NCBI GenBank assembly: GCA_964017045.1
Contig: OZ024798.1
Span: 11,181,793-11,245,792, forward strand
DNA length: 64,000 nt
Reading direction: 5' to 3'
From: Omphiscola glabra
Lineage: Eukaryota > Mollusca > Gastropoda > Lymnaeidae
In this document: one piece after another, positions 28,631-63,988 of the stretch
Layout: every line of letters begins with the position of its first letter
How positions within the stretch are numbered: position 1 is the first letter of the stretch
Position numbers and translations under genes: made by a program
Notes under the pieces: model-generated
Database searches by the model: none
What the model saw: only the letters and a program-made list of their open reading frames with translations
What the model was told of the DNA's origin: nothing

Positions 28631-31600
28631 GTAAGGCTGCGTCTCTAAATAAAAAACAACAAATTAGTGTAATGCTATAAATTCATTTGAATATTAGAAC
28701 ATCTTTATTCATTTTCACCTGCTACATTATTTTGGGATCTGTGGTGAGTGCAAGCAGGATATAAATCTGTGAGCTTACTACTGGCAAGACAACAGGTTGG
28801 GGTACCGTTTATGTTCTTGCTCTGACGCCGACTTTTATTTGGAAATATGTCAAGGGGAATCAGTCGGGCATTCAAATAAAGAATTTTTTTAACAGCGCTT
28901 TAGTTTCCTTAACTAATGTTGGTCTAGTTTTACCATCCAATATTTTAAAAAATAACAGCGACCTTGCAATGACCATATCCCAAATATTGAAATAGTAGTA
29001 ATTCTTATTTTCATATGTTCTAATCATCTTAAAAAGTGTAAATGCATTAGAATTAAGCTATTTCTTCTTTGCTCCCTCATTGCCCTCTGCCCCAACAGCT
29101 GCATATCCCGGTATGCCACCATTATCACCTGAATCTCGCTCCCCTGTTCATGAAGAAGGGCTCGACAATGCTCGTCAGTATGCTCGCCATGTGACCAACA
29201 TCGCAGCCAGGACAGCATCCAATAATGCAGAATCCGCTTCTTCAAGTTTGCCCATTCTGTAAGTTGGGATATTCCACTCCAAAAAACAAGATGTGCATGC
29301 TCACAATGAGTACATTGCTATTGTACTTGCTATTCCAAAGGAATCGATGTACTTTAAAAAATTTATTGTAAATTTAGTATAAACTTTAACATTTATTTTT
29401 AACAATACAAAAAATTCAGTACAATTCAAATAAGTAGAAAGCTTATTAATCTATGTCAGTTATTGTATAGTTAAGACTAGCGTTAAGATTCAAACAATAT
29501 CATATATGTGATTTATTTAAGTAAAGTAACTTGTATTACATTTGACCATAAGTATGATAAAGCCGCCCCCCCCCCCTCCACAATCTGTCTGCAGGGCGCT
29601 CCATCGTCGGAGACATGCTTCATCAAGAGCACCAACAATACAGCCGAGCGTCTCGCAAGAGGACTTTGTGTCCGTCGGCCAGGAGTCTAGAAGCTCGAAC
29701 TGGCCCATGCCTAGAAGATTAGAGGATGCCCAGGCTCGGAGGAGGTGGGGCAGATACGAGCCGTTCTTTTTTTCCAGACACACAAGCAACAGCAATAACA
29801 ACAACAATGGCTTGGGGGACAGTAACAACAACAGCAATAACAACAACTATAACTTTGGTCATGGTAGCTATAACAGTTACAGGCCCGAAGTCCCCGTCCG
29901 GTCGGCCTCATCTTTAGACAGGCTCTTCACCTTGACGAGTCGTCCTTGGGAGGAGAACTGCCGCGGTGCCCGCCCGAGTCTTTTCTCCGCACGGCCAGCA
30001 GAAACGTCTGGGTCCTCGGCAGCCTCATCCTCCCAGCCATCTTCTCTGTATCAGGGGACAAGAAATGAGAACGCTGCAAGTGAAAGTCTGGATGCCAACG
30101 AGTTTGAGATTCTTCCGGTAGACCAAGAGAGGGAGGCTCGCAGAAACAACGGAAGTAATGGTTCGTCATCTTCCGGTGTTCTGAGCAATGCGGAGGGGAA
30201 TAACAATAATGTGGCCAGCTGGGAGGAGCTGCGTGCCTTGCTTAATAGAATAGCCAACCGATCAAGTGAGGAATCGTCCGCTTCTAGTGGTGCGGCTACT
30301 GTTACGGGTGTCCCCCCGCCATGGCCACTTCAGTCATCCAGCGCGGCATCCACTGCTGAAGGAAGTGAGTCTGGTTCAAGGTTGTCCATAAGGATATCCT
30401 CTGAGCCTGCCGCGGCCAGGCCAACATCAGTTCATCGGACACCCGCAAGGGATTCTGGCACCGCTGACTCGTCTAATCCCATCCTGAACCTAGATGTCTT
30501 CCTTGGCAGTGGAAATCTAGATACCTTTGAAGTGCCTTCAGCCAGAGTTTCTTCGTCGTCGTTGTTGTCCTCAAGATTAGCCTCACAGCTCCTCCCACCC
30601 GGACAAGAACCCCCTGCTGCCCAGCAGGAATCCATCAATTCAGTATTGAGAAATTCAGAAGCTGCTCCCCTGGCGATGGGCACTTCTGACAACACTGGTG
30701 TCCACATTCATTTTGACAATGGTGTCAGCCACAGCTGGAGGAGAGGGCTGGGTCTTCGTCATCATTCCGTGGATGAAGAGTCAGAGTTTCGCCTGCATTC
30801 TTCACTGCTGGATCGCTCCACCCCTAGGCACGTTATCGATCAGACCAGCCAGACTCTGGGAGCCATGAACCTGCCAGAAAGCTCTGATCAGTGCACAGAT
30901 GTGTCTGATTTGGGGGAGCAACATCAGCGCACAAGTGTGTCCGGATTGGGGGAGGACCATCAGTGCACAGATGTGTTTGATTTGGGGGAGCGCCGTCAGG
31001 GAGATTCTCATCTCATGGGGGGTGGTGTGAGGGACTCAGCGGGACATTCTGAGGTCACTGGGGTGCGTGTAAGGAGAAACGTTTATGAGCGCTTGGATGA
31101 AAATATGCAGCCCCTTCGGATAACCATTCCAAGAGAGCCATTAAGTTGTGAATTCAGTAACGAGGACGGAGACTTGGCTTGCAAGGAGGGAATAAGTGAC
31201 ACTAGAGATGACCAGAGTCAGTCCAGTAAAAGTCTTGATAGTAGAAGTAACAAAATGTCCATCTCGGCTGCCAGAGGGAATAGTAATTTAAGAGACGATG
31301 TCTGCACCTTGCCGCTGAAAAAACGAGGCAGAAAAATTCAAAGCAAAGAAGCTGTGGTGAGCAGTCAGGATTTTTCAACGAGTGAACACGCTTGCCCTTT
31401 GCATGCATCAAGACAAACTGGTTCTCTTGCTGGGGATAGAGGGGAGGGCATCAGCAGGCATGCAGGGCCACCACAGCCGGCCGGCTGCTCAGCCCATCAA
31501 CAGGTTTGTGCTGATGACTCTCGAACCAGAGAGACACAGGCAGTTGCATGTGAGGATCGGTCAAACACCCAACTGTCCACAAAAGTTGGTGAGGACCAGC

Positions 31601-34358
31601 CTGGCGTGTTGTGTTCAGATCCAAAGGACAGATCTGAAGATAATGAAGGGCTTGGTGAGAGCTGGCATCCATCCATCAGTGAAGATGGTCAACTCAATAC
31701 CTCTGTTGTGCCCGAGCCTGAGATGTACTCTCCCGAAAGGCCAACATTGGATTGTTCTGAAAATGAATCATCCACTCCTGTGGGCACAATGTCGGCGGAA
31801 TCCCTTTCGGGTGTGAGCGGTCCATCCGCTGCCCCCGTCCGCGTTATATCCTCGACATCCTCTTCATCAACATCGTCCCCTTCCTCATCCCCTTCTTTGT
31901 CCTTATCTTCAGTCATATCTTCCTCCTCTCAGGACACCCAAGCTTCTAGTGCCTTACTGGGTACAACCTCTTTGCATCTCCTGCCTGTCATCTCAATGGC
32001 AACACAGTCCTCCAGGGCACCTCCAGACTCTCCTGGAGTCAGCAGTCGGCAGGCACCCAGGGACTATTTAGCACTTCAAGAACAAAGCCGTACAATCGCT
32101 TCCCTCTCAGATAGTGGGGAAACTAGGCAAACACAGATCTTTTCAAATGGAATGGCCTCCCCTACTTTAGATGGCGAACCATACCCGAACATAAGGCCAA
32201 GTATGTTCGCCACAACGCCTTGTCCATGGAACATACCAAGGAGCACGAGTGATAGCATTCTCAGGGCCTCGCTTGTGCGTCCATCATCCTCTGATGTCAG
32301 GGCAGGACTGCGGCGATTCACCGACTCCAGTCAGCCCAGCGCCTTCTCTATCTTCAGCACGTCGACGCGGGAGCTGACCAGAAGCCCGTCGTTATTCAGG
32401 ACCTCATCGTTGCTGAACCCTGCTTCTGCCAACCCTGCATCTTCCTCTGGTCTGTACCCACCTGCCGCCAGGTCAGTTTCTGATCAGTCCAGTACAAGCT
32501 CTCCTCCCGAGGGTGAGGCTTCCTCTCAGAGACAACTGAATGCTGTTAGAGATGTGCAGGAGAGATTGCAGCAGGCTGTACAACAGCTACGGGAGGTGCA
32601 CACTAGTGTTAGAGAGTTGTCTTCAACTGCGCCAAGTGATGATCTCAACGTGATGGGTCCTGATTCAGTGACTCAGTACCTTGAGAGAAGAGTAAGTAAG
32701 AAGATGTGACTCTTGGCAAAAGAGAATATGTAGCCCTTCACTAAATTAGTCTGTCCAAAGTAAATAGACTTTGATCCAAGAAAGTACCCTTTGAGTCTTC
32801 CATATAGTACATGCGCACTGATGGGGGAGGGGGTTGTCAATTTGGGAGATTGGGGGAGGGGCCTCACCAGAAAGTATATACTATACATTTATTCACAGAC
32901 TTCTTCGGCAGAGCGAATGACCCTGCCCAAGTGCATTCCGTTACCCCAGGGTGACATTGCTCATTTTTTTATGGGAACCACTGGGCTCACCAAATAGCAT
33001 TGGAAAACCAACGATACATTTTATTTCATGTGACGCCATAATGGTTTTTAAATAAATTAATACGTTTTTTTTTAGAGGATGGGGTTTGACAGCTTGTTGT
33101 ACATATGTATTACGTATGGGGGTGTCTAAAATGTACATTTGAAAAGGGAGGGGTAAATTTTTTTTAAATTTATGTTCGTGCTATATGGATGGCGCTTTTT
33201 GTCCTAGTGTGTGGTTTGTTGATGTACCGGTATGTAGCAACAATTTGACCTAAATCTCCTGTCTTTCCTATGGGAAATTAGTAAAACACAGTAAGGTTAA
33301 ACCTGATAAAAGGAATGCAACAAAACAACGAACGTGTCGGCAGGAAGCCTTCATCAGCGAACAAACGGAAAAACCAATAAAATTAAAAAATGTGTAAAAA
33401 AAATATAATGTAGCACTTGGCTCAGAAGTGGTGTTCGTTGTTTTGTTGCGTTCCTTTTATCAGGCTTAACCTTGCTGTGTTTTACTAATTTCCTATTGGG
33501 CTAACCTGATTATCAGGCCCAAGTTTTAAATCATATTAGATCTTGTCTGTTCATTAAATACAAGCAATGACCAAGTAAGTTGTGTGGCTTAAACTACTTA
33601 AAGTTAACGCTACACTGTCTTTGCTTGACACAGTTTTCACAGTCTCACTGACCTACTTAAAATTCGTAGGTTTAATTGAACTTTTTTTTTTTTTTTTTTT
33701 TTTTTACAATACCGGACAACTGACAAATAAAAATTTAAATATTATTAATTTGAAGCAAAACAGACCAAGTCATAGGCTGACAGACCAAGTCATAGTTTGA
33801 CAGAACAAGTCATAGGTTGCTTTTTTTAAAAATCTTCCAGGTATCTGAGCTTGATCGAAGAATCTCTGACCTTGAGGAGAGCTATAACTCTCGTATTCGA
33901 GAGTTACGTCATGATTACTTGATGAGAAGGTCAGAAGTGCATCAAAATCTTCCTCTCTGTATCTCACCCTCCCACTTAATTATTTTATCATTAGAAAGCT
34001 TTTACAATTTTTTTTTGTGTTGTGGCCAATTTCAGTATTATTTATTCTCTAAATTAGTCCTTATAGGCTCTCCCGCTACCCCCCCCCCCCACCCCCACTA
34101 GCCCTCCCACTGTTTCAAAAAAAAAAACGACAAAAGCATTAAACTAAACATTAAACCTGTAACACAGGGGATAATGTGTAATTTCCTTTCAGTTTATTTC
34201 CCAATTCAAATATTCATTTCTCGTGGTGTCCAGCTGCATGTAACATAGATTAAATACCAAAATAATTTCCGTGCTTCTTGCTGGAGGCATTTGTAAAAGG
34301 AATATTGACTAGGCAAGAATGCAATAGACAAACTTATTTTGTGTATGGGAATGGATTG

Positions 34359-37400: not shown

Positions 37401-40400
37401 TGTTTAATATGAACTGTCCAATGGTGATTCACTCAGTTTGATAAGAACTGTCCATTTGGTTAATCACTGTTTTTGATATGAACTATACATTAGTGAATCG
37501 CTCTGTTATGCCCAGCCTTCCTACCCTATCAATTTGATTCCATAAGTTCAATTTCTCATAGCCTGTGGTTACAATATGGATTCGCAGGTGCTTTCCTGAC
37601 CAGGGATGACCAAGCAGTTGCCAGTAACATTGTTCCTCAGACCCACAGGATCCAGAGGTGGGATGTCTCCAAGTGTGTTGTTCCCGATATAACCAATGGT
37701 GAGTGACGTTGGTAACTAATGTTTGGTCTGTGTCCACTTGGTCTGATCACAGATGGTAAACCGAGCCCGATATAACCAATGGTATCGAATCTTGACACTA
37801 TAAGGGAGACCACTGATTTAATCTGGCCTGATTGAAGTTTGACTAGATTTTGAGACATCCCCTTTTTAAAATGCCCACATGAAGACTCGGATTTTGAGAC
37901 ATCCCTTTAATAGAATCAGAATGCCCACATGAATATATGGATTTTGAGAATCCCCTTTTTTAGAATGCCCATATGAAGGCAAAGATTTTGAGACATCCCC
38001 TTTTTAGAATGCCAACATTAAGACACAGATTTTGAGACATCCCCTTTTTAGAATGCCAACTTGAAGACACAGATTTTGAGACATCCCCTTTTTAGAATGC
38101 CCACATGAAGACACGGGTTTTGAGACATCCACTTTTTAGAATGCCCACATTTTTTTAATTAGCCTTGTGATGTGTCGCTTAACCATTTAAATTTATCATT
38201 GATATAGATTTATCTTTTGAGAAATATTTTGAATGTGACATTTAAATTTATCAGTGATATAGATTTATCTTTTGAGAAATATTTTGAATGTGACATTTAA
38301 ATTTTTTATTAAAGTTCCTTTTGTATTTTCTGTTATTCCAAAGCTGTACATGTCTTACTTCAGTTGACTTGGACTAAAGTATTAAACACCTAGTGACATT
38401 TCCCTATTTTCTATCCATAGCGTCCATCAATATCGTTGTAAAGCATTGCAAACTCCACAATGATGCCAGCTGTGACCTCTCCAAGGATGGGACATTCCTG
38501 GCCACTTTTGTACCAAGTCACAGGGGTTTCCCAGATGACAACATACTGGGGGTTTTCTCTTTGAGGAAGGAATCTCTGGCTCACTGCTTGTATACAAAAA
38601 GCTTTGGTAAGACTTGCAGAGAACATTTCTTTTTAATCACTGACTTGTATCAACCATTCACTCAGAACTTTGGTACAGTCTGTGGCCTATCAACCATACA
38701 CTTTGCCCTTTGGCACAATCTGTGGCCAACACTGTTCATTTATATTTTAAACACTGAATGCACTGCACCTTTCCTAATCCCATTTCTGTTGTTTCATAAA
38801 CATACTCTTTATACAAACTAAGCTGTTGCTACGGCACAACATGAAATTTAGAATGCTCGTTCAGTAACAAAATTACCTAGGTTTTTGTTTGAACCACAGC
38901 TGTTAATGTTAAAGCTCCTCAGCTTAACCAGTGAGATTTCAATTACGTTAAGTGTTTTGTACCATCTCTGCTCTGTATTGCACCATCTCTGTATTGCACC
39001 ATCTCTGTATTGCACCATCTCTGTATTGCACCATCTCTGTATTGCACCATCTCTGTATTGCACCATCTCTGTATTGCACCATCTCTGTATTGCACCATCT
39101 CTGTATTGCACCATCTCTGTATTGCACCATCTCTGTATTGCACCATCTCTGTATTGCACCATCTCTGTATTGCACCATCTCTGTATTGCACCATCTCTGT
39201 ATTGCACCATCTCTGTATTGCACCATCTCTGTATTGCACCATCTCTGTATTGCACCATCTCTGTATTGCACCATCTCTGTATTGCACCATCTCTGTATTG
39301 CACCATCTCTGTATTGCACCATCTCTGTATTGCACCATCTCTGTATTGCACCATCTCTGTATTGCACCATCTCTGTATTGCACCATCTCTGTATTGCACC
39401 ATCTCTGTATTGCACCATCTCTGTATTGCACCATCTCTGTATTGCACCATCTCTGTATTGCACCATCTCTGTATTGCACCATCTCTGTATTGCACCATCT
39501 CTGTATTGCACCATCTCTGTATTGCACCATCTCTGTATTGCACCATCTCTGTATTGCACCATCTCACATTTGCACAGTGTGAAATAAAAGCCAGGCAGCA
39601 TTATTTGTGTCAGAATGTAATTGCTAAGGCAGACTTGTTTACCCTCAAACTCTTAAAATTGTGCAATTTCATCACAAAATCTCTCAATACATTATCTTAA
39701 TAGTGAAAAAATAAACATACAGCATATATAATGTATATACCTTTTCAGAATGCCCACATGAAGACACGGATTTTGAGACATCCCCTTTTTAGAATGCCCA
39801 CATTTTTATTAGCCCTGTGATGTGTGGCTTAATCATTTAAATTTATCAGTGATATAGATTTATCTTTTGAGAAATATTTGAATGTGACATTTAAATTTAT
39901 CTGTGATATAGATTTATCTTTTGAGAAATATTTGAATGTGACATTTAAATTTATCTGTGATATAGATTTATCTTTTTATACTGTATACACCTCAAAATCG
40001 TACATTGTACGCCAAAATCTTAAGAGTAAACAGGTCTGCTAAGGTGATTCACACAGACTAAAACAAGGTTGTTTTTACTGCGTAGCTTCTTGTTTGTTAT
40101 TTTAAGAAGTGCCAATGAAAATCTTGAGCTTTTGTGACAAAAGAGCTCAGCGTAGATGGAGATAGGAATGCTGTTGAAAGAGTCAAAATTGACGTTGGCC
40201 ATAAAGGTCAATGTTGAAAAAATTGGTGTTTTCTTTATTTGACAGGCCCAAATGCCATTTCAGTGAGCATCTCCCCAGAAAATCGCTACGTCATGGTGGG
40301 ATTAGCCGCTAAAAGGCTGTTCTTCTTTTCCGTCAACCAAATGGTGGCCCAAGTGTACAGACTGGCTAAGGAGAAGGCCGGAGAGAGTTCTATGCGGGTA

Positions 40401-49500: not shown

Positions 49501-52500
49501 TATATGTATATAGTTTATATAGCTCCTAGTAGAGGTTCCCCAGGTTTACTATTTAATATATAAGGATTTTGATTTCTTATTTGATACAAGTTTCTATTGT
49601 CACATGACAGTGACAGTTTAAAAATATTTTTTTATACCTGTCTTGAAAGTCGGGCAGCCCCCTCCCCAAAAAATTACATTGAAATGAACTGTGAAACAGC
49701 GTAATGGTCAAATGAATGGCATACTGGTAATAAGTAATAAGATAAAACTATTGGTTTTATAGCTTATGGCGGAGTCACGAACATATATTTGTTATTTCTT
49801 AACCAATCAATAGACTCAATAGATAACATTTTAGCCATGCATGCAAATTTTTTAATTTAAAGTTTAATGGTGCCTGTTGTTTTTCAGCAAGGATGAATTT
49901 TTTTTTAAAAAATGTCTTTTGAACTTTGACAGTTGAATCTTTTTTTGTTGACCGGATGGAAAATTTCATGTGAATATATTTTATTTATATAACTTTTATC
50001 AATTATCAGATTTAGGTTATGCCAGAAATAATGCTTTGTAAAGAATAAAGGAAATTTATCATACACTTCGTTCAGGTTCAACTATTAAACTTATATCCTT
50101 TGTTTGTATTCCCCGAAAACATGTCGCTGCGCTTAGTGTGAGACAACTCTTCTCAAAACCCATACCGCAAACTTCATATTTACAAAATAATTATTAATTC
50201 ATCCAAATAGATAGCATCATGAAAAGAACAGCTCACTTATTGTTAATTTTTGGACACCTATGGCTAAAAAATATATTTTTTTTACGTCCTGGTTTCAAGT
50301 TTGGATAAAAAAAATGGTCACCTTAGTAAAGGGAAAACCTTCAAACTTTGGATATTTTAAAACACAACCCACACTTAGTGAATGATTTGAATAATATTTT
50401 TTTAATGTTTTTTTTATTTGTACAGAAATGAGCAAACGAAAGAGGAGCATTTTAGATTTCTTGGCTAAGGTGTCCACTAAGAAATTACATGCTGATACTG
50501 CAAGTTGCTCATCTCAGTGTGAGCCAGTGCTTCAGCAGGATAACCCAGTGTCCAGGGCAGAAACTACGCCAGCCTGTAAGTCAGCTGTAGTTCAGTTGGT
50601 TACCAATGTGGCTAAAGATACAGCTGCTGAAGTCAGTGAGAGAATTCATCTACCAGAATGCTGGGACCAGAACCAGTGGCTAGATTTTAAACAAAAATAC
50701 CCTTGGCTGTTCGTAGAAAATGGCCTTTTAGGATGCAGTGTGTGCCGTGAGTTTAAACATCTTGGAGTATCTGTTTCACAGGGAGTATCTGTTTCTAAAG
50801 AATGGAGCACTGGTAGGATTACTCCTTATGGCAAAACAAAAAAAGATATGTTGACCTCACTGCGTAAAAAAATTCATGTACATAAGATTTCAGAAGCTCA
50901 CGTAAAGGCAGGACATGTCCAAGCTGTATCTGAGTTACTTCAGTCGAACATTGCAGAACAGCAGAAGCATAAGTTTGCTTCCACCACTAAAGTGTTCCGC
51001 ACTGCTTACTTTTGTGTGAACAAAAATCTCCCGTTCACAGATTTCCGAGATCTTATCAGCCTGCAGGTTGCTAACGGCGCAGACTTAGGGTGTATTCCCC
51101 ACAGTGAGCATACAGCTGCAAAAATAATAGATTACATTGCCAGTGAAATGAGGAAAAAACTGTGCAATGCAATTGTTGAACAGGCTCCAAAAATGTCTGT
51201 GTATATTGATGAGTCCACCATAGTTTCATCACATCCAGTGTTAATTGTTTATATTCGTGCCTCTGTTAATGGAAAATGCCCAGTCACTTTCTTTATTGAT
51301 TTGCTTGATTTGCCTAATGCAGAGGCACAATCTATTGAAGCCGCTCTTCTAGCTTGTCTTTATAAACATGGGTTCAGTAATGGCTTTCTTGCTAAAAACT
51401 GGATTGGGGCTTGCAGTGATGGTGCAAGTGTACTGCTGGGAAGACAGTCAGGATTTCTGGAACGACTCAGTGAAAGATATCCACAGCTTGTGAAATGGCA
51501 CTGCTTATGTCATAGGCTTGAATCGTGCATTCCAGACACAGTCGATTTATTTCCTGGTCTTCACCATGTAACATCATTTTTTGAGAAGTTGTATGCAGCG
51601 TATCATCATCAGTCACTCCAACATCTGTCAGAGTTCTTTGAATGTGCAAAAGAATTAGAAGTACAAGTTCTTAAAATTGGAAAAGACTATTCAGTTAGTA
51701 GGGTTGCCTCCAGCCACGGAGCTATACAAGCAGTCTGGGAGTCCTATCCTGCACTGCACAGTCGTTTCTTGAAAGCAAGCTTAAGTTCAACCCTTAACAC
51801 TCAGCAGAGATCTATGTTTAGTGGCCTTTGCGAGGTCCTGATATCAGAAAATTATTTGTTAAACCTTGCTGGGATTGCAGATGCTGTTCAGGAAATCAGA
51901 CTTTTATCTGAAGCCCTTCAAAGAGATGACATCACACTTCCACAAGCCTATCAGCTGATTAATCAGTCGGTTCGTGCAATTGAAAAAATGAAAGATACTC
52001 CTGGCAAACATCTGAAAGAAGTTATGGAATCTCTGGATAAAGGGTGTTTCAAAGGTGCGACCATCATTCCAGAGAGTTCAAAGGGCCAAGTGATGATTAA
52101 TCTCACTCAGTTTTATCAATGTTTAGTAGATAATTTACGCTCTAGGCTTAATGCTTTAACTGCGGCTTCACCACAGTCAGGTGAATTTGAAACCCTTGTC
52201 TCAGAAGTTGACATCCTGAATTGCCAACGCTGGCCAATCAATGTGGACAGTCCCTGGTTTGAGGGTGAAGCAAAGCTGGAGCAGCTCTGCAAGAGATTCC
52301 GCCTCAACTATGCATCCATCTGTGAAGGTTTCAGGGACTACATTGACAATGGTGGTGCAGAGATTCCTGAAAATCTGAAACCAGCTGTGACAGCGGTTAA
52401 CAGTCTTCCTGTGACATCTGGTTATTGTGGAAGGGCGTTTCGTACAATAAATTTGTTTATGTCACCCATTAGGAGTCGGCTTGACATTGAGCTCTTGTCT

Positions 52501-55500
52501 TCTCTATTGTTTATCCGTCTCACTGGCCCCCCTGTGGATGTATGGGATCCTTTACCATATGTCTCAAAATGGCTGACCTCACATTGTTGCGCAGATGATA
52601 CTAAATCTCCAAAAGTCAAAAAGCATGAGCTGCAAGGGCAATGTCATACCAGTTTGTGGGAAATCTTTTAATGAGGGGGGGGGGGGATGTGTGGGAACTC
52701 ACCCAAGATTGCCTCCTCGAAATAATATTTTTATTTTTTAGCATAACAAAAATACAAGAATGCGGATCCCATGTGCCCTGCAGGACTCTAGGCCTTTACT
52801 ATTGGCTGTTATTTTTATTACATACCAGTATGTTTCAAATTTCCAAAATTTTCATAGGAATTTATAGGGGAATAAAAACCCATAAGTACAAAAGTAAACA
52901 GCACACAAGAATTTAGGATCATTTCGCTGGTGCCTTTAAAAAATAAAACAAATAGTAAATCAAAATTTTGAATTTAAATAAAACTTTACAAGACTTAACT
53001 TTAAAAAAAATGTGTACAAGGTATATACTTATTAGTGTACAGAAAGTACACCTACTCTGAGAATTTTCATCATACAAAATATATGAAAAAACATTGTACC
53101 TCTTCTTATGGGTGGAAAAATTATGCCACCAGACCAGGGTTAAGGTATTTTAAACACTCTGTCTTAGAAATTCTGTATGAAGAGAAGAGCATCATCCACT
53201 GGGGCGATTATGGCATTAGTATGGCCAACAGGTTAAGTTATTTTGTTGTTACATGGGCTCTATTATTACACTATTGATACATGTGTAAACAAGCAATTTA
53301 TAGTGAATGTTGCACTGGATTTGCTGAGAAAGAAATACATATTTATTTCCGGTAAAGAGAGGGTGGGGGGGGGGGGGGGATTAGGGTGAGTACCCACAAT
53401 AATTTTTTTCAGGACTTCAGCCCCCATCACCTATAACCTCCATAGCATTTATTCTGTTTCCGAGGTGACGCTGTTCCTATCGTACATTCAGAAATTATTT
53501 ACATTAACCATTGTGAACCAATTAAAAAAAAAGCTCTTCACACTTGGCAAATGTTACAACAAATTAAAATGTGTGTATGTCTAGAATTAGGCCTATCAGA
53601 TCATGTAGAAACTTTATGTTCTTCCTCAATGTTTTTTTTCCTATTGACCAAATGAATAAAGATTATGTTGTGAACATAAAACTACCATGCATTATAAGTT
53701 GCATACATTTGTGGATACAAAACAAGCACAATCTTTTAAACATGCAATTCATAATTATTAATAGTATTAGCTGGAACAGTTTTATTTGAACTAGTTAGTT
53801 GTAAAACTGAGTTTTTTTTATCTGTAGTGCTGCATTGTTCAAAATTATTTTTCCCTAAAAGTTTTTCTTTAAGATCAATTAGTTCAAGACTACCTAAATT
53901 TACTCCCACCCATATTAACATATTGAGTTAGTTTTTTGTAATTTATGGCTTTTTTAAAAGGAGTCTATGTTCTAAAAAATATACATTTGAAATATAGATA
54001 TAATTATATTAATGCTGAAAAATAATGTTATTTTTCTTTTTACTAAAATTGGAAAGCAAAAAAGGAAGCTAAATTATGGAATAAAGATTATAAAATATAA
54101 ATTGCATGCTGCAGGTGATTAATTTATTAGCCTATTCATGAAAAATAAATTTTCAAATCTTTATTTGGTTAAATTTGGGAATTATTCATTTGTAAAATAA
54201 ACACATTATTAGTGATAATTGATATTGAGATAAAAATAAATTGAGAATCAGATATCAACTACAAGCCTTCAGTCAGTGCACAGCCTAGACTCATAGATCT
54301 GTAATTATGTCAAGAGCCAGGTTGTTCTGTACTGTCATGCCCCTATTAATATTATAATGAACAACTTTCTCAATCTTTAACTTAACAATATACCCTGTCT
54401 GTAATCTGTTTCACACAATTGACCAACCTGCAAGGCCTGGCATTGTTTGAGCTGTTGTATTTTGGCTTTGTTCCTGTTTTGCTTGTCCATTTCACGCCAC
54501 TGTTCAACTTTCTCCCTGAGAGCTTTGTAGTCTGCAATTTCTTGCTGTCGTTTCTCTAGCAGCTTCTGTTTCTCTTCCTCATCCAAATATATGGGTTCTG
54601 GCAAGGTTTTCCTGCAGTGCAACATAAACGATTTTAGTAAGGTAGTTTTTCTAGTGGAAACTTCACATTATCAACTTACAACATAAACATTTCTTTAGCA
54701 ACCAAGAGCACAATATTTGCATATTTTTGTCCTTTAAAAAACATCATTAACCAATGACGTAATTACAACATATAAACATTTATTTTTTATTAATTAAGAG
54801 TGCAAAATCTTCATGTTCTAATTTGCATATTTTTCCTGGAAAAACATCCCTAACCAAAAACCTTGATTTCAACCTGTGCGATTTAGCCAAATAGCTTTGT
54901 TCTTCATTAGCTTGCTTTATATTAATTGGCAACATGAGCTCCATTGCAACTTAAAAAACTGTAAAAAAAAAACTGTTAACTACATTTGGCCCATCCATCA
55001 ATCATTTACAGGTACTGCATGTGAACAAAAAAAATCCATTTTCACTCCCCAGAGCATTTTCTTTACATCCTTTATGGGTCATTTTGAATAAGGAACCCAC
55101 CTCCCTTCCTAAAACATCACCCACTTAAAATTTTTTTAAACTATTTGTACCATACTTTTTTTTACTGTTATAACTTTTTAAACACATAAAGATATCAATT
55201 TTTCATGTTTAAAAAGTCACTTGAGATAAGTAATAAAAAATTTTTTTATATCAATAAAAAATGTACCAGCATGCTTTCCCCCCCGGATGCCCAGATGTTA
55301 AAAAAATCAAAATTCTGATAAAGTCAGTATTTTCATTAAGCATGTGAGGTTTTATGCTTAATCTTAAAATGTTCTCTTTTAAAATTTGTTACCAGAATGT
55401 TAATCCTAATGCTGAAAATGAATATGTACAATTACAATGTGCTTAAAACATATTTACATTTATTTGCATCAATAAAACAAATCTCAAATCTTTTCTAATA

Positions 55501-58500
55501 AAGCTTATTTGTACTTTTTAAAGTTTTTCCCAGAATTCCTCAATCCAACTTATTGTATTTTCATGTAATTTTTAAAAAAAGTTTCACATAAGCCATCTTT
55601 TAAGTTTCTGTTATGTCTGTGTAAACATTAGTTGACACCAACTGACCTTTTCAGAATCTCTACCTTCAACCTGCCATGGGAGTGATGAGGAATCTAGAAC
55701 TCATGAGGGCATTGGCTCTAAATGTTTGAGAACCAAGGGCATTAGCTCTAAATGTTTGAGAAACAAGGGCATTAGCTCCAAATGTTTGAGAACCAAGGGC
55801 ATTAGCTCTAAATGTTTGAGAAGTAGTTTCCTCAGCAGCATAACTTACCTGATAAAAGGAGTCAGATCTAAGGGTTCAACAATTTCTTTAGCATGGGCGG
55901 GGTGAGGGGGTTCCAGGGTCAAGATGACATCAGACTCCACGTGGTCAGGCGACTGGGGTGGCATCGAATCCTGTTCGTTGATGACAGAGCCAGATTCTGC
56001 AGCATGGACGTAGCTGTCAAAGTCTGACTTGGATGTCGGCACGGTGATGTCACTCATGGTAGGGGCCAGCTTGATGGCATGGGTATTGAGATACATCAGT
56101 CTAGCCTGGAGAGCCTGGGGATCAGAGGTCATGCATTAGTCTAGACTGGGGATCAGAGGTCATGTATTTTAGTCCAGCCTGGGGATCAGAGGTTATGTAT
56201 TTTAGTCCAGCCTGGGGATCAGAGGTCATGTATTTTAGTCCAGCCTGGGGATCATAGGTCATGTATTAGTCTAGCCTGGGGATCAGAGGTCATATATTAG
56301 TCTAGACTAGGGATCATAGGTCATGTATTAGTCTTGCCTGGGGAATCATAGGTCATGTATTAGTCTAGCCTGGGGATCAAAGGTCATGTATTAGACTAGA
56401 CTGAGGATAATAGGTCATGTATTAGTCTAGACTAGGGATCATAGGTCATGTATTAGTCTAGACTAGGAAGGTATGTTGATGTCATTTTAATTACTTTTAT
56501 TTAAGGGAGGAGAAAGGTGGTTTAAGGAATTGTTTTGGTCCATAGGTAATGTGACACAAGTTGATGTAGTAATGTGACACAAGTCGATGTAGTAATGTGA
56601 CACAAGTTGATGTAGTAATGTGACACAAGTCGATGTAGTAATGTGACACAAGTCGATGTAGTAATGTGACACAAGTCGATGTAGTAATGTGACACAAGTC
56701 GATGTAGTAATGTGACACAAGTCGATGTAGTAATGTGACACAAGTTGATGTAGTAATGTGACACACGTTGATGTAGTAATTTGACACAAGTTGATGTAGT
56801 AATGTGACACAAGTTGATGTAGTAATGTGACACACGTCGATGTAGTAATGTGACACAAGTCAATGTAGTAATGTGACACAAGTCGATGTAGTAATGTGAC
56901 ACAAGTCGATGTAGTAATGTGACACAAGTCGATGTAGTAATGTGACACAAGTCGATGTAGTAATGTGACACAAGTCGATGTAGTAATGTGACACAAGTGG
57001 CTGTAGTAATATGACACAAGTCGATGTAGTAATGTGACACAAGTCGATGTAGTAATGTGACACAAGTCGATGTATTAATGTGACACAAGTCGATGTAGTA
57101 ATGTGACACAAGTCGATGTAGTAATGTGACACGAGTCGATGTAGTAATGTGACACGAGTTGATGTAGTAATGTGACACAAGTTGATGTAGTAATGTGACA
57201 CAAGTTGATGTAGTAATGTGACACAAGTTGATGTAGTAATGTGACACAAGTTGATGTAGTAATGTGACACAAGTTGATGTAGTAATGTGACACAAGTTGA
57301 TGTAGTAATGTGACACAAGTTGATGTAATGTGACACACGTTGATGTAGTAATTTGACACAAGTTGATGTAGTAATGTGACACAAGTTGATGTAGTAATGT
57401 GACACACGTTGATGTAGTAATGTGACACAAGTTGATGTAGTAATGTGACACAAGTTGATGTAGTAATGTGACACAAGTTGATGTAGTAATGTGACACAAG
57501 TTGATGTAGTAATGTGACACAAGTTGATGTAGTAATGTGACACAAGTTGATGTAGTAATGTGACACAAGTGGCTGTAGTAATATGACACAAGTCAATGTA
57601 GTAATATGACACATGTCGATGTAGTAATATGACACAAGTCGATGTAGTAATGTGACACAAGTCGATGTAGTAATGTGACACAAGTTGATGTAGTAATGTG
57701 ACACAAGTCGATGTAGTAATGTGACACAAGTTGATGTACTAATGTGACACAAGTTGATGTAGTAATGTGACACAAGTGGCTGTAGTAATGTGACACAAGT
57801 CAATGTATTAATATGACAGAAGTCAGTGTAGTAATGTGACACAAGTCGGTGTAGTAATATGACACAAGTCGATGTAGTAATATGACACAAGTCGATGTAG
57901 TAATGTGACACAAGTCAATGTAGTAATATGACACAAGTCAATGTAGTAATGTGACACAAGTTGATGTAGTAATATGACACAAGTCAATGTAATGTGACAC
58001 AAGTCAATGTAGTAATGTGACACAAGTCAATGTAGTAATATGACACAAGTCAATGTAGTAATGTGACACAAGTCGATGTAGTAATATGACACAAGTCAAT
58101 GTAGTAATGTGACACAAGTCAATGTAGTAATGTGACACAAATCAATGTAGTAATGTGACACAAGTCAATGTAGTAATGTGACACAAGTCAATGTAGTAAT
58201 TTGACACAAGTCAATGTAGTTATATGACACACATCAATGTAGTAATGTGACACAAGTCAATGTAGTAATGTGACACAAGTCAATGTAGTAATGTGACACA
58301 AGTCGATGTAGTTATATGACACAAATCAATGTAGTAATGTGACACAAGTCAATGTAGTAATATGACACAAATCAATGTAGTAATGTGACACAAGTCAATG
58401 TAGTAATATGACACAAGTCAATGTAGTAATATGACACAAGTCGGTGTAGTAATATGACACAAGTCAAGGTAGTAATGTGACACAAGTCAATGTAATGTGA

Positions 58501-61500
58501 CACAAATCAACGTTCTGTTTTAGATGTAATGTTCTTTTCTTTCTTTTTTTGTACAGAAAATAAAAACAATTCTTTTCAAAGACCAGCCTTATTTCAGTAG
58601 CATTTTTTTCCCTACATCTTATGACAGTTGTTACTGATTAAAAAAAAAATCTAAATTTATTTTCAATCAAACACATCAGTCTATTGAAGGCCACAGAATA
58701 ATAAATTAATTTTAAGTAAGGATGTTTTTTTTTTTTTGTTGGCCAATAATTCATAGTTTTACAAAGAAGGAAAATATTTTAAACATCCTTCAATATTTTC
58801 TTCCTATACAGAAACCAATACACAGACATGCTTTTATTTTAAAATATACATGAACATAAATTATCAATATACTGTCATCATTGTGTCCCACTAACATTGG
58901 CTGCCTTACACTGTTCTTGGCTGCTCTGCCTCACACTAACCCAATTGCTCTGCCTTACACTAACCCAATTGCTCTGCCTTACACTAACCTTGGCTGCTCT
59001 GCCTTACACTAACCTAATTGCTCTGCCTAACACTAACCTTGGCTGCTCTGCCTTACACTAACCTAATTGCTCTGCCTAACACTAACCTTGGCTGCTCTGC
59101 CTTACACTAACCTAATTGCTCTGCCTAACACTAACCTTGGCTGCTCTGCCTTACACTAACCTAATTGCTCTGCCTAACACTAACCTTGGCTGCTCTGCCT
59201 GGCTCAGCTTCTTCCCATGCTTTCTTCATTGCCCTGATCTCATCAGCTCTCTCTGTATCTTTCTTGATCTCAATTTCCTCCTACAACAACACCAATACAC
59301 TTGCTTAGTGCCTTTAAGGGGTTATTTTGATGAGCATTTTTTTAAATGTTACTGTCAACTTTAAGTACCATCTCTGTTGCCTCTACACGAAACATCAAAG
59401 AATTAGACTTCCTGCTGCAAGTGAATCACCAGAAAACATTGAGACTTGGGGGTCTTCTGCAAATTACATCATGCTCGGGGGGGGGGTCGAGAATTTGTGA
59501 CACTTTGTGACAGGGGGAGGGGGGTAAAAAAAATAATGTGACGTCACATTGTTTTTACTGACATCACATTATTTTTACTGTTGTTTTTTTTTTAAATCTA
59601 AAATTTTCTAATTTTGAAAAATCTTTATTTAATTAATTTTTAAAACATTGATTTGAGGTCGACATGGCCTCAGGTATTATAGGTACTATGAACTCAGTCG
59701 CTCAAACCTTTTGGGCAGAACGAAAAATGATGCAGAAGCTGTTGTGGTCATTTTTGCATTCGGCTTGTGGATGACTTTGTTGTTTTGCGTCAGAGTTTTC
59801 TAATAATACTACATCTTAATCCATTTTGGGAGAATGTTAAAAAATTTAATAAAATCTTAGTTTTTTAATGAAAATTTTATGTATGTTTTGATTTTATTAG
59901 GAGTGATGTGACACGGGGGGGAGGGGGGGGTAAAGAATTTGTGACACTTAGTGACAGGGGGAGGGGGTGGTCTAAAAAGGTCATTTTTAGTGTGACCTAA
60001 TTTACGAACGACCCCCTTTATGCTGAAGTGAATCACTTGAAAAACATTGAGACTTACTGCTGCAAAGGAATCGCTGACGACACGTAGAACGTAATGGGGC
60101 TTGGTCAGGTCAAAGTTCGGTGACGGTGGCCTGGAGACCTTGACCTCTTGACCTTTCTCTTTCACCCCCTTGTCCTTGCCCACTTTAGGCTTCCCTTTGT
60201 TGGGGGCTGGACTTTTCTCAACCTTGGGTGGAGACGGGTCCCTCTCTTTATTGGCAACTTTGGAAAACAAATGAAGAAATGATTGCAGATAATAGTTCGG
60301 TTCTTGACACAGAAAATAAAGGTTGCTAAAACTTAGCTTGATGGTCAGACAGCAATGCAAAGAAAAGAAAACATCAATAAACAAAATCTGTACTTTTAAT
60401 TTGAAAGAACTAATCCATTTCAAATAACATATAATATATAATTTTATATAATTTTATGTTGAGAACATTTCATGTTTTTTAAATTTCATTTATCAAATTA
60501 AAAAACCTAATGAATAATCTACATGTAAACACTGTCTGATTTATATCCAGTAATTAATAAGTAACGGTAAATGAGATATAACAAAATGTATGCACCATTT
60601 ATGTGGACATTCCCCATTCTATATTTGGCAGTGTAGAGGCCACAGTTTTACGAAAACAGTGTGTAGCGCCCAAAACACTGTATGGAAATTTGCCCTCGCC
60701 CAATCAGGAATGTGACCTCGGGGTCAGGGCTTGGGTATCAGGTACCCTGCAGATGACCAGCGTCTCTCCGTTGCTCAGAATACTTAAATATCAGGAACCA
60801 CTATGTGAGCATTAGTTATAAGTTCAATAATTTATTTCTCGGGAACCCTAGTGTATGATGCTATGAATGATATCTAGTTGGGAAGGGGAGTTTATTTGCT
60901 ATACTTTAGTATATTTACAAGTCTCAATCATTATAGGATATTTTAATATTTAGTAATTAAGTCAGTTTTCACATTCATTCATGGGGGGGTCCCAACCCGT
61001 TTTATTTACATATCTCAAAAACCATTTAGCTCATAGAAATATAAGAATGTATCTTAGATAGCCGAGAAAAAAACTGAAAAGGACACATCTAAGTCTTTTG
61101 GGATTTGGTCCAGAATTTTAACTTCTACTCGGGCTGTAGTCCTCAGGGTTAGTCATTTTACCACAGGGAATTTGCCAGAAGGCAAGTAAGAGAACGTCTT
61201 ACACGGGGCGTGACGTACATGCTTTCTAGTCTGTCTGCGCGCGACTATTTAGGGCGGGCACACTAAGGAGTTTTTATTTGAGGATTTAACAGCATCCCTG
61301 AAGTGTGTCATTATTCACCTCTGCCCATTTGAATGCTCTGTAAGTAGAAGCAAATACGCCTTTATATTTCTGTGTTTGTTGGATGCAATTGTTAAGTGTT
61401 ATGTAATGGGATATTTCTGTTCATGACTTATATTAGGCAGTGTTTTAATCACTTGTTGGCTCCGTCAAGTTGACGTGTAACAATGATATCGTGATGGTTG

Positions 61501-63988
61501 AACATACGGCCGTCCACTGAATTCTGAAATGGAATTGGATACCAGTGTTTGTGAGAATAACGCCAGCCATTATGTTGTTCTGGTTACACAATGTGCTTAG
61601 AAGCTATTGATACAACTGTATACGACCAGCGAATATACATAAAATATGTGCAGTAGGCTAACTCCTGCCTTGTGCTAAATTCTCACATAGAAAATGGTGC
61701 ATGTGTTAGGGGACTATTACCAGCTGTATTAATATAATTAGTCATGCCGCAATTTGCTTTCGTCTTATGACACAGTGATTGAGTGATGCAAGGCTCTAAC
61801 TAACGGTGGTTATACCTTACACCTTTGTAGTAACTGTCCTGCTATGGGTGCATCTTACATAGACCCCTTACATCAGCATTTTGTCTTTAGAAGCTACAGT
61901 CCTCAAGACCTGAATTTCTTTAGTGTATATTTTCTTACCTTTAAGCTCATTTTTCTCCATTTCCTTAAGCATCATGACATGCCTCCAACTTTTCTCAGAA
62001 AGAGGCCAGCTGTTCTGTAAGACCTTGGCTTGTATGACGTACTTGTGAGGCTGTCCAACAACATTAATATTTGAAAAAACTACTCTCGACACCAGCTTGT
62101 TATTTTTAAAATAATTTTTTTTATAAACAAACCCAATTAATTTCCTGAAGTTCAAGACGTAAATAAAACGTGAGTTTAAAACTAACTACCATTAGGAAAA
62201 AGATGGAAGCAACAGCTTATACAAAATTTTTAATAAACAAAACAAAACAAAAACAGATACCTGCAGTTAAAATGAATTTAAATTCTTACTTTTGTTTCTT
62301 CCAGTCTCTCTGCCAACTCGGCCTCAGATCTCATACTGTTTCTCTGGAACAATTCAGTAAAATGATAGTGTGACGCATTAAAGAGTTGTGACACAATAAT
62401 ATTTTTTTTCCAAGTGAAATCTAAGTGATGATGTGTCTGAGATATTAAAATGATGTCGGTTGTGATGTTTGATTATTGATGAGTGAGTGACGTAATACTG
62501 AATTGAATGACCTCATCGTTCAGTTTCACTTACAGATGGTGGGGCCTGCTCGTTGACCGCCGACTCAGATCTCTTGGTCTTGGTAGAAACCTTATCAGAT
62601 TTGTTTGAAATGGCCGCAACAGAGCCTTTCAATGCTGGGGAAACAATCAAATCATGTACTGAAAATGGAGGGGTCCATAAAGTGAACGGGGATCTCACAC
62701 CTTCTTGAAGGTGTTCCAGTAGTGTGTACTGTAACTTTGGACAGAAGGTTTCCTTAAAACAAAAATATGATTACATATTAATTTGATCATTGCGAGGTGC
62801 TAAATTTGAATGTCATTTCAAGCCCCACGCATGGCGCCAAGACTTACAAGCTCTGGAGCCTGACCGCCTGTCAATGTCATCCTGTGTGATGTTCTTGAGA
62901 AATATGAAAGCAGGAATGACGACATGCCCTTTGCCCACAGCACTGATGATCTCCTCATCATTGTCCAGTATGGACAGCTTAATGTACACGTCTCTCTTTG
63001 AGGTGTTGACTTGTAGGCTGGCGAAATGGTCCTCAGCCACCTTCACCGACTGTCTGAAAACAGAATATATATATTTGTATAATGTCTGAATGTCATACAA
63101 GAACAGAATATATAATTATATAATGTCTGAATGCTATGCAAGAGCAGAATATCTATTTTTTATAATAAAAGAACAGAAGAATATTAATAACACAGCCCAG
63201 GAAGTTATTCACAAATGAATGAGAAGCTTCATTTATATTGTTAGTACCTGTGTAGTATTTAATCTACTTTCATTATATTTTATGAATGTTCAATGCCAGC
63301 AAACTATAAATTGGAATTTTTTTTTTTTAAATATGGGTATGTCAGTGCAACTGCAGAGAACATAATTGGGCCGCAAAGTGGGTGCCGGCGGGCCACATGT
63401 GGCACGCGGGCCATATGTTGTGCAGGCCTGCCCTGGTTTAGATATATTTTTGAGCATTTTTAACCCTCAAAAAATTGAAATATGCTGTAGCTTAAGAGAG
63501 CTGTGAAAAAGTAGATATCAGAGTCTTTAGATTCCAAGTCACCACAAAATAAGTCGTCTCCACTTACGGCTTGAAAAATCTACAAAGATAATTTTAAAGT
63601 TATAAGTTAATTAAAGTAAAGTAAGATAGTTTTGGAGTTTTGGGTAGTTTGTAGGATTCCAACCTTGTCAAAGTCAATATAACAGTTCCAACCTTGTCAA
63701 TATAACAGTTCCAACCTTGTCAATATAACAGTTCCAACCTTGTCAATATAACAGTTCCAACCTTGTCAATATAACAGTTCCAACCTTGTCAAACACAAAC
63801 CTGAAGATGATATTGTTGGGATTGGGGAGGTAGTATTCTTTAATCTCTTTGGTGATGAAGCTGCTGCAAACTTCTGCTGTCTGTGGCGCTGGCAGGGGAC
63901 TCAGTGACCCAATAAGGCGCATTCTCCAGTTGCCAGAGGTCAAAGGTTGCTCCACTGTTCTTGCCTCTGCTACAAATGAGTAGCCTTT
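46395..63988 (-). CDS. ADGB: Androglobin, C-terminal part (10 exons, 5' end outside)
   Basis: Chimeric calpain-like/globin protein linked in mammals to cilia and sperm flagella. Only the C-terminal region, about 525 residues, is in the window; the protease and globin domains would lie beyond the right edge. Exons in transcription order: 63801-63988 (5' border tentative), 62848-63053, 62534-62634, 62290-62343, 61939-62050, 60058-60257, 59185-59280, 55849-56114, 54428-54611, 46395-46568. Phases agree throughout. Diagnostic blocks: EIRAMKKAWEEAEPGRAAK, LDLTPFIRKT, the coiled coil EKRQQEIADYKALREKVEQW, and the end AREAIRQKY-like helix with a Lys-rich tail KTKKPPKKK, all in androglobin order. Transcribed towards AMBRA1 (convergent). 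Confidence 0.92.
46569..50427. other. Androglobin last intron, left part
   Basis: AT-rich. It has a diverged direct duplication (AACCATTCACTGAGCAGCTCAGTATAA-like, near 47390 and 47535) and the MITE at 48264. An exon-like minus frame at 48488-48721 has no clear splice sites. The last 20 bases before 50428 read as an acceptor. Confidence 0.45.
48264..48371. mobile_element. 108-bp hAT MITE
   Basis: Ends CAGTGGTTTCCAAACT and AGTTTGGGAACCACTG. Flanks ATCTAAAC and GCCTAAAG share the central CTAAA. Confidence 0.85.
50428..52671 (+). CDS. hAT transposase, KIAA1586/ZNF862-like, intronless
   Basis: An uninterrupted 747-codon frame inside the androglobin last intron, on the opposite strand. TTF/BED-like finger: C103-x2-C106 with H140/H142/H148. 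RNase-H-like core: D251 in MSVYIDESTIVSS, D321 in IGACSDGASVLLGRQSGF, then CLCHRLE (C-x2-H). C-terminal dimerisation block: LPVTSGYCGRAFRTINLF and SRLDIELLSSLLFIRLTGPP. Where hAT proteins normally have C/S-E-R-x-F, this one has C-G-R-A-F (G668, codon GGA at 52429-52431), so the usual catalytic Glu seems lost by one base change from GAA. TTTATTTGTACAG ends 2 bp before the ATG and could be an acceptor. I found no terminal repeats. It could be a recently disabled copy or a retained host gene. Confidence 0.87.
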   Translation: MSKRKRSILDFLAKVSTKKLHADTASCSSQCEPVLQQDNPVSRAETTPACKSAVVQLVTNVAKDTAAEVSERIHLPECWDQNQWLDFKQKYPWLFVENGLLGCSVCREFKHLGVSVSQGVSVSKEWSTGRITPYGKTKKDMLTSLRKKIHVHKISEAHVKAGHVQAVSELLQSNIAEQQKHKFASTTKVFRTAYFCVNKNLPFTDFRDLISLQVANGADLGCIPHSEHTAAKIIDYIASEMRKKLCNAIVEQAPKMSVYIDESTIVSSHPVLIVYIRASVNGKCPVTFFIDLLDLPNAEAQSIEAALLACLYKHGFSNGFLAKNWIGACSDGASVLLGRQSGFLERLSERYPQLVKWHCLCHRLESCIPDTVDLFPGLHHVTSFFEKLYAAYHHQSLQHLSEFFECAKELEVQVLKIGKDYSVSRVASSHGAIQAVWESYPALHSRFLKASLSSTLNTQQRSMFSGLCEVLISENYLLNLAGIADAVQEIRLLSEALQRDDITLPQAYQLINQSVRAIEKMKDTPGKHLKEVMESLDKGCFKGATIIPESSKGQVMINLTQFYQCLVDNLRSRLNALTAASPQSGEFETLVSEVDILNCQRWPINVDSPWFEGEAKLEQLCKRFRLNYASICEGFRDYIDNGGAEIPENLKPAVTAVNSLPVTSGYCGRAFRTINLFMSPIRSRLDIELLSSLLFIRLTGPPVDVWDPLPYVSKWLTSHCCADDTKSPKVKKHELQGQCHTSLWEIF
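52672..54427. other. Androglobin last intron, right part
   Basis: AT-rich, with G runs at 52675 and 53370. No convincing right terminal repeat of the hAT element, and no further exon. Confidence 0.45.
54428..56114 (-). CDS. ADGB: Androglobin exons H-I
   Basis: Exon H (55849-56114): ALQARLMYLNTHAIKLAPTM, then an acidic linker and EPLDLTPFIR. A second AG 9 nt downstream (CTCCAG|GCTAGA) could give an in-frame ALQ-less variant. Exon I (54428-54611): KTLPEPIYLDEEEKQKLLEK and a long coiled coil. Confidence 0.9.
55703..55825. repeat. 30-bp tandem repeat, 4 copies
   Basis: Unit ACCAAGGGCATTAGCTCTAA then ATGTTTGAGA. Ends about 25 bp from the exon H donor. Confidence 0.92.
56115..56470. repeat. 31-bp array carrying copies of the exon H acceptor
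   Basis: Eleven or so units of CATGTATTAGTCTAGCCTGG then GGATCAGAGGT. On the minus strand this reads ...CTGATCCCCAG|GCTAGACTAATA, matching the real acceptor (CTGATCCCCAG|GCTCTC) and the nearby exon start (CCAG|GCTAGACTGATG). At least seven units keep the CCCCAG. Confidence 0.92.
56548..58510. repeat. 23-bp minisatellite, about 85 copies
   Basis: Unit TGTGACACAAGTCGATGTAG plus TAA. Subtypes (gttgatg, gtcgatg, gtcaatg) occur in blocks and a few units lack 5 bp. All minus frames stay open over long stretches; no gene. Confidence 0.97.
58888..59200. repeat. 49-bp array carrying copies of the exon G donor
   Basis: Two alternating 24-25 bp half-units. On the minus strand they read GGCAGAGCAGCCAAG|GTTAGT (identical to exon G end plus donor) and GGCAGAGCAATTAG|GTTAGT. 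The full donor half-unit occurs at 58983, 59032, 59081, 59130 and, as the real junction, 59179. Confidence 0.95.
59185..60257 (-). CDS. ADGB: Androglobin exons F-G
   Basis: Exon F (60058-60257) codes a Pro/Lys-rich linker (KGKPKVGKDKGVKEKGQEVK) then FDLTKPHYVLRVVSDSFAA. Exon G (59185-59280) codes a charged helix ending EEAEPGRAAK at donor GTTAGT. The last 16 bp of exon G are also the first unit of a tandem array. Confidence 0.9.
59410..60056. repeat. Intron F-G repeats: duplicated donor flank and G-rich element
   Basis: AAGTGAATCAC..GAAAACATTGAGACTT occurs at 59418-59446 and at 60026-60054, the second next to the exon F donor. Between them, GAATTTGTGACACTTTGTGA plus CAGGGGGAGGGG occurs twice (59490 and 59935) and the right end reads AATTTACGAACGACCCCC, typical of a dispersed non-coding element. 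Confidence 0.6.
60258..61938. other. Androglobin intron E-F
   Basis: No exon is needed here, since E and F join in phase. AT-rich, with a short GC-richer stretch at 61190-61260. Nothing recognised. Confidence 0.45.
61939..63988 (-). CDS. ADGB: Androglobin exons A-E
   Basis: Exon A: SGNWRMRLIGSLSPLPAP, KEIKEYYLPNPNNIIFR. Exon B (acceptor TTTTCAG|ACAG): DVYIKLSILDNDEEI, GKGHVVIPAFIFLKN. Exon C is a low-complexity Ser/Lys linker. Exon D has 18 codons (RSEAELAERLEETK). Exon E: HKYVIQAKVLQNSWPLSEKS. The acceptor of E was set at GTTGGACAG|CCT because it is in phase with D; an earlier frame extension is intronic. Confidence 0.88.
63060..63160. repeat. 43-bp tandem repeat at the exon B acceptor
   Basis: Two and a half units around CAGAATATATAATTATATAA then TGTCTGAATGCTATGCAAGAG. 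Each unit carries, on the minus strand, CATTCAG|ACATT, close to the real acceptor TTTTCAG|ACAGT. Confidence 0.8.
63362..63432. mobile_element. hAT-like terminal remnant
   Basis: GCGGGCCACATGTGGCACGC then GGGCCATATGTTGTGCAGGC, the inverse of the end at 3991. No partner end found nearby. Confidence 0.5.
63650..63797. repeat. 23-bp tandem repeat beside the exon A donor
   Basis: About six copies of TTCCAACCTTGTCAATATAA plus CAG. The last unit runs to within about 10 bp of the donor at 63800. Confidence 0.93.

Follow-up and report, generated by a model that had tools for sequence, protein, structure and literature searches.

The window analysed here, a stretch of 64,000 nucleotides (nt) at positions 11,181,793-11,245,792 of contig OZ024798.1 of the gastropod Omphiscola glabra, carries a minus-strand gene in which one intron has a minisatellite at each end, and the units of each minisatellite resemble the adjoining splice junction. 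The assembly comprises 744.8 Mb in 37 contigs, and a wider stretch of 224 kb was examined around the gene. Among the best 120 of 7999 matches, COX1 of the assembly (contig C37) shows 96% identity with a Galba cluster, 95% with Austropeplea and Lymnaea and about 91-92% with Planorbidae; as Galba is a member of Lymnaeidae, the snail is most likely a lymnaeid.

Host gene and exon borders

The minus-strand gene at the intron arrays is androglobin, as identified by Pfam domains IV and V and by protein homology. Androglobin domain V scores 97.7 bits and domain IV 47.4 bits, both above the cut-off of 27, in a Pfam test confined to these two domains. When its ten exon pieces are joined, the gene reads as a single open frame to the stop codon, with AG/GT borders in all nine introns; the first four letters of the joined translation are intron. 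The androglobin query has 30 homologs, among them proteins of Elysia marginata (67% over 69% of the query) and Batillaria (54% over 97%), and a sequence search of the PDB with the androglobin product gave no matches. The features of the intron and its flanking exons are listed below in the direction of transcription, with lengths in nt or base pairs (bp); arrays were delimited with Tandem Repeats Finder (TRF).

59185..59280, minus strand: exon G of androglobin, ending GGC AGA GCA GCC AAG (G R A A K), from the joined gene model and the homolog-to-DNA comparison
58922..59200, minus strand: donor-side array, 24/25-bp units largely arranged as 49-bp pairs, with the last 15 nt of exon G and the donor GTTAGTG (TRF)
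56546..58505, minus strand: third array in the same intron, 86 copies of 23 bp (TRF and unit sequence)
56463..56490, minus strand: far edge of the acceptor-side array, TTAAAATGACATCAACATACCTTCCTAG, putatively what is left of the original acceptor with its pyrimidine stretch and branch site
56112..56461, minus strand: acceptor-side array, 11 units of 31-33 bp, each with about 15 nt of exon-start copy and about 16 nt of intron end with AG (TRF and unit splitting)
56136, minus strand: predicted branch-point A in CTAAT, 21 nt upstream of the true acceptor in the exon-like half of the nearest unit (consensus matching)
55849..56114, minus strand: exon H of androglobin, whose first 24 nt are GCTCTCCAG GCTAGACTGATGTAT (codons A L Q A R L M Y), from the gene model and homolog alignments
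56091..56105, minus strand: exonic segment GCTAGACTGATGTAT, the putative ancestor of the exon-like half of the units

Exon G is matched by eight of the ten homologs compared with the DNA. The match covers exactly 59280-59185 in six of them (P0001, P0003, P0004, P0005, P0006 and P0013), 59277-59185 in P0002 and 59280-59179 in P0019. Exon H is matched from 56117, one codon ahead of the border, by six of the same ten (P0001-P0006). The joined sequence PGRAAK|ALQARLMYL is spanned by 27 of the 30 homologs, all of them unbroken at the border. In P0013 and P0025 gaps occur only beyond it, P0020 and P0026 match unrelated stretches only (E 0.33 and 6.2), and P0022 yields no alignment. Because the homologs align ungapped over the border, the protein comparison puts the exon H acceptor at 56115/56114, where the initial annotation had it. 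An alternative AG lies nine bases into exon H; its use would lose three positions at which each of the 27 homologs has a residue. The A-x-Q after the border is kept in 23 of the 27 aligning homologs, from molluscs and annelids to mammals. Since exon H is conserved across such distant animals, these alignments identify exon H as the ancestor and the acceptor array as the derived copy.

Acceptor-side array

TRF reports a period of 31 with 11.1 copies and 89% matches for the acceptor-side array. When split at the exon-like motif, the array has 11 units ahead of the exon, of which seven measure 31 bp, three 33 bp and one 32 bp; the exon's own copy comes next. Each unit consists of an exon-like half of the GCTAGACTAATACAT type and an intron half that ends in AG, and the AG is present in all 11 decoy acceptors. 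CCCCAG precedes seven of the decoy units, or eight counting the true acceptor, in agreement with the initial count of at least seven, and in three of the 11 decoys the last 16 intron bases are identical to those of the true acceptor. When the entire assembly was searched for the array stretch at the DNA level, by a method that skips simple repeats and very common words, this one place was the only match.

The exonic segment GCTAGACTGATGTAT and the unit segment GCTAGACTAATACAT are identical at 12 of 15 positions. Among 12,006 other AG-anchored 15-mers on the same strand of the 224 kb, none reaches 12/15 and one reaches 11. Without anchoring, the score observed for the exon start (56113-56080) is reached by 10 of 3000 dinucleotide shuffles. 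These matches bear out the earlier view that the array, of the 31-bp type, is built from copies of the acceptor and the exon start. The further claim that the first codons are copied stands for GCTAGACTGATGTAT but not for the first 9 nt: GCTCTCCAG (Ala-Leu-Gln), which in the exon separates the true acceptor from the copied segment, is absent from the units. In exon H the word CCAGGCT flanks the GCTCTCCAG stretch on both sides, 9 nt apart, and slippage between these two words probably removed the nine bases from the unit.

Donor-side array

The 24- and 25-bp units of the donor-side array mostly form identical 49-bp pairs, with 96% matches. The terminal 15-mer of exon G (codons GRAAK) occurs six times in the 224 kb, all at this array and including the exon itself. 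Past the true donor at 59185 there are 11 decoy GTTAGTG sites, ten inside the TRF array and one just outside at 58895, and the score of the junction copy is reached by 1 of 3000 shuffles. The units of the donor-side and acceptor-side arrays are unrelated, so the proposal that both junctions of one intron were amplified by separate arrays holds, with the donor-side unit copying donor 59185. We read the third array, which fills most of the intron, as a copy of neither junction.

Origin of the arrays

The units of both arrays contain exon sequence, and complete exon borders persist at the outer array edges. Two separate tandem duplications in one androglobin intron, each straddling a junction, very probably gave rise to the intron-side minisatellites. 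One duplication would have covered each junction of the intron, with later growth on the intron side. The spliceosome would then pick the outermost sites and leave the mRNA normal, which the open frame over the joined exons appears to fit. Given such use of the outermost sites, all of the added sequence would become intron, and junction-spanning duplications could persist for this reason. In classic experiments (Reed and Maniatis 1986), exon context reportedly decided between duplicated splice sites. The arrays are most likely without regulatory function, a harmless by-product of a repeat-rich genome.

The opposite order, in which the start of the exon was recruited from the array or a repeat was converted back into exon, would account for the A and M of ALQARLMYL, which differ from the S and K of the named gastropod relatives within the repeat-like stretch, and for an M that none of the 27 homologs has at its position. 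It is nevertheless very improbable, given the ungapped border in all 27 aligning homologs, the A-x-Q kept from molluscs and annelids to mammals in 23 of them, and the single genomic place of the array in the assembly search. The two arrays might also act together by RNA pairing that joins the intron ends. RNA pairing is reportedly the role, a different one from that of mirages, of a repeat in a TERT intron (PMC3948165). Units of the two arrays can be folded into a duplex of -28.8 kcal/mol, but 52 of 500 shuffled unit pairs are equally stable, and pairing between the arrays was rejected as scarcely credible.

The decoys themselves suggest a third alternative, in which some decoy donors or acceptors are used, the resulting early-stop transcripts are degraded, and the level of androglobin is thereby tuned. 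Every decoy would lead to a stop ahead of the next exon, for the 11 acceptors as for the 11 donors, and three of the decoy acceptors share the final 16 intron bases of the true one. For the acceptors, the predicted stop after about seven codons applies to seven of the 11; the other four stop after 11, 18, 29 and 40 codons, still ahead of the true exon. For the donors, read-through from exon G meets TAG as the eighth codon. Such stops are expected without selection, because every reading frame soon comes up when the unit period is no multiple of three. The arrays also differ in unit and in homogeneity (89% versus 96% matches), which does not suggest joint upkeep, and the amphioxus cases discussed below are reported to splice normally. 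The role as a 'poison event' that the initial annotation gave to decoy use is thus not sustained, and tuning by the decoys is improbable, although they may be used at a low level.

Exon H encodes ALQARLMYL where the named gastropod relatives have AxQSRLKYL, and both changed residues fall within the repeat-like stretch (56105-56091). The M is absent from the 27 homologs, and with these changes conversion of exon by repeat sequence is conceivable.

Predicted branch site for exon H

Branch sites follow the consensus yTnAy. Two motifs of this type lie 15-45 nt from the true acceptor: CTAAT at 21 nt, and CTGAT at 38 nt, which is beyond an AG 26 nt upstream. The corresponding segment of exon H has CTGAT where the unit has CTAAT. 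CTAAT, with its A at 56136, is therefore the more likely site of branching for the true acceptor. At the far edge of the array, TGACATCAACATACCTTCCTAG (56484-56463) presumably preserves the pyrimidine stretch and branch site of the original intron end. It lies some 350 nt away from the true acceptor, and from that edge there are 19 AGs before the true one. This displacement of the native branch site would arise because the unit holds only about 16 nt of intron. Since the native site is so distant and lies behind 19 AGs, an exon-derived branch site is proposed: coding sequence may have become the branch point of its own exon's acceptor through tandem duplication, a tentative reading that we consider somewhat less probable than its negation. 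CTRAY occurs 15-45 nt upstream in two of the 17 acceptors of the gene (56114 and 65420), both with a junction copy; this pattern was spotted post hoc and comes from matching a consensus at a small number of sites.

Acceptor 65420 of androglobin (L002:1420) has its upstream near-copy at L002:1471, where AG is followed by ACACTCCAG (17/24).

Relation to known mirage repeats

Mirage minisatellites of the amphioxus Adh3 gene were reportedly described by Canestro et al. 2002. PMC3087553 gives the name 'mirages' to amphioxus tandem repeats of exon-intron boundaries, states that they affect 5' and 3' borders and that many carry AG/GT signals, and puts the Adh3 units at 10-72 bp. Amphioxus mirages are reported not to disturb splicing (PMC3087553; PMC3902484), and length polymorphism or somatic instability is given as one of their properties. 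In both arrays of the androglobin intron the unit spans an exon-intron boundary, and many units carry AG or GT (AG in 11 of 11 acceptor decoys, GTTAGTG at 11 places past the true donor). The androglobin arrays thus resemble the amphioxus mirages (Adh3 and the globins BflGb6 and BflGb9) in affecting either boundary and in having AG/GT in the units. They differ in that the Omphiscola glabra case is molluscan, with independent arrays at both ends of an intron, and is known here from the DNA of one assembly. The tandem duplications of lancelet PGBD5 (PMC3902484), also counted among the mirages, have longer units. The variable internal tandem repeats at human exon-intron boundaries share the expansion of minisatellites there; some are said in PMC2812944 to form new introns, whereas the snail arrays give no sign of this.

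On these sequence features we would file the androglobin arrays as molluscan members of the mirage kind that occupy the two ends of a single intron. A molluscan mirage was not found in the literature searched, which covered minisatellite/splice-junction, Lymnaea and androglobin topics in part, with subscription papers mostly outside. If the assignment is right, mirages are not an amphioxus oddity and arise in unrelated repeat-rich genomes. An intron with decoys at both ends would also be a natural test of outermost-site choice among near-identical sites, and would offer a possible route from exon sequence to branch site. As a functional element the intron is probably ordinary.

Repeats and splice junctions

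Tandem arrays with a period of at least 10 cover 26,630 of the 224,000 bases. Random intron 24-mers of the gene are copied more often than its junctions: at a threshold of at least 20/24, 140 of 1020 random 24-mers versus 2 of 34 junctions, and at no less than 17/24, 191 of 1020 versus 3 of 34. Background tandem duplication suffices for this reason, and the double hit on one intron is not strong evidence for a special process. There is no need for a special pull of repeats to junctions; what junctions add is tolerance. A test of junction 24-mers against shuffles of their introns puts 3 of 34 at the floor of p ~0.003 (donors 59185 and 60058, acceptor 65420) and acceptor 56114 at p 0.027, and is discounted because random intron 24-mers are repeated more often.

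Several points weigh against reading the arrays as background duplication alone. The 17 introns surveyed hold 15 arrays, and five of these end no more than 30 nt from a splice site, where 0.9 would be expected under uniform placement inside introns (P 0.0006); two of these five are the arrays that prompted the analysis. Such proximity might reflect a pull towards junctions, but it would look the same if exons simply halted the growth of arrays. The 24-mer control is itself uneven, since copies of random 24-mers were sought to either side and those of junction 24-mers to a single side, and the 56114 junction scores below 17 in it, its units lacking the nine exon bases. As to frequency across genes, the neighbouring CEP126-like gene has junction copies at 0 of 14 junctions, with borders that are approximate and in some cases off AG/GT. 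The start of one upstream exon was set 1-6 nt off, at 74953 or 74948, in the shuffle and placement tests and at 74947 in the 24-mer control.

That splice junctions are preferred birth sites of minisatellites in Omphiscola glabra is improbable. The five junction-near arrays speak for it, as do the short junction copies of donor 60058 and of acceptor 65420. Against it, junction 24-mers are repeated less than random intron ones, the neighbouring gene is without junction copies, and donor motifs are not enriched among the 71 array units of the 224 kb (two at 8/9 or better, versus a null mean of 1.8).

The copy of donor 60058, which belongs to the preceding intron, lies at 59426-59403, about 645 nt downstream, matches at 20/24 and has GG in place of GT; the local score of its surroundings is reached by 0 of 3000 shuffles. 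Comparisons in this shuffle test whose targets overlapped their queries (65420, 63053, 63801, 55849 and an initial one for 56114) were set aside. The arrays at 63673-63792, 63059-63166 and 55706-55822 end 8, 5 and 26 nt from splice sites of androglobin.

Other features of the window and neighbouring gene

The last androglobin intron contains, on the opposite strand, an open frame of 758 amino acids (50395-52668, plus strand) without a Pfam match, which gives the impression of being perhaps a transposase relic. A second open frame, of 1059 amino acids (29530-32706, plus strand), also has no Pfam match, and a Pfam search of seven large open reading frames gave no families. The array at 38971-39565 has 37 copies of a 16-bp unit and is probably very young, because its matches are 100%. 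The neighbouring gene, on the plus strand from L011:440 onward, resembles CEP126. Its nearest match is a Physella acuta protein that the source names TFIID subunit 1-like, and its matches in Liolophura and Ambystoma are named centrosomal protein of 126 kDa.
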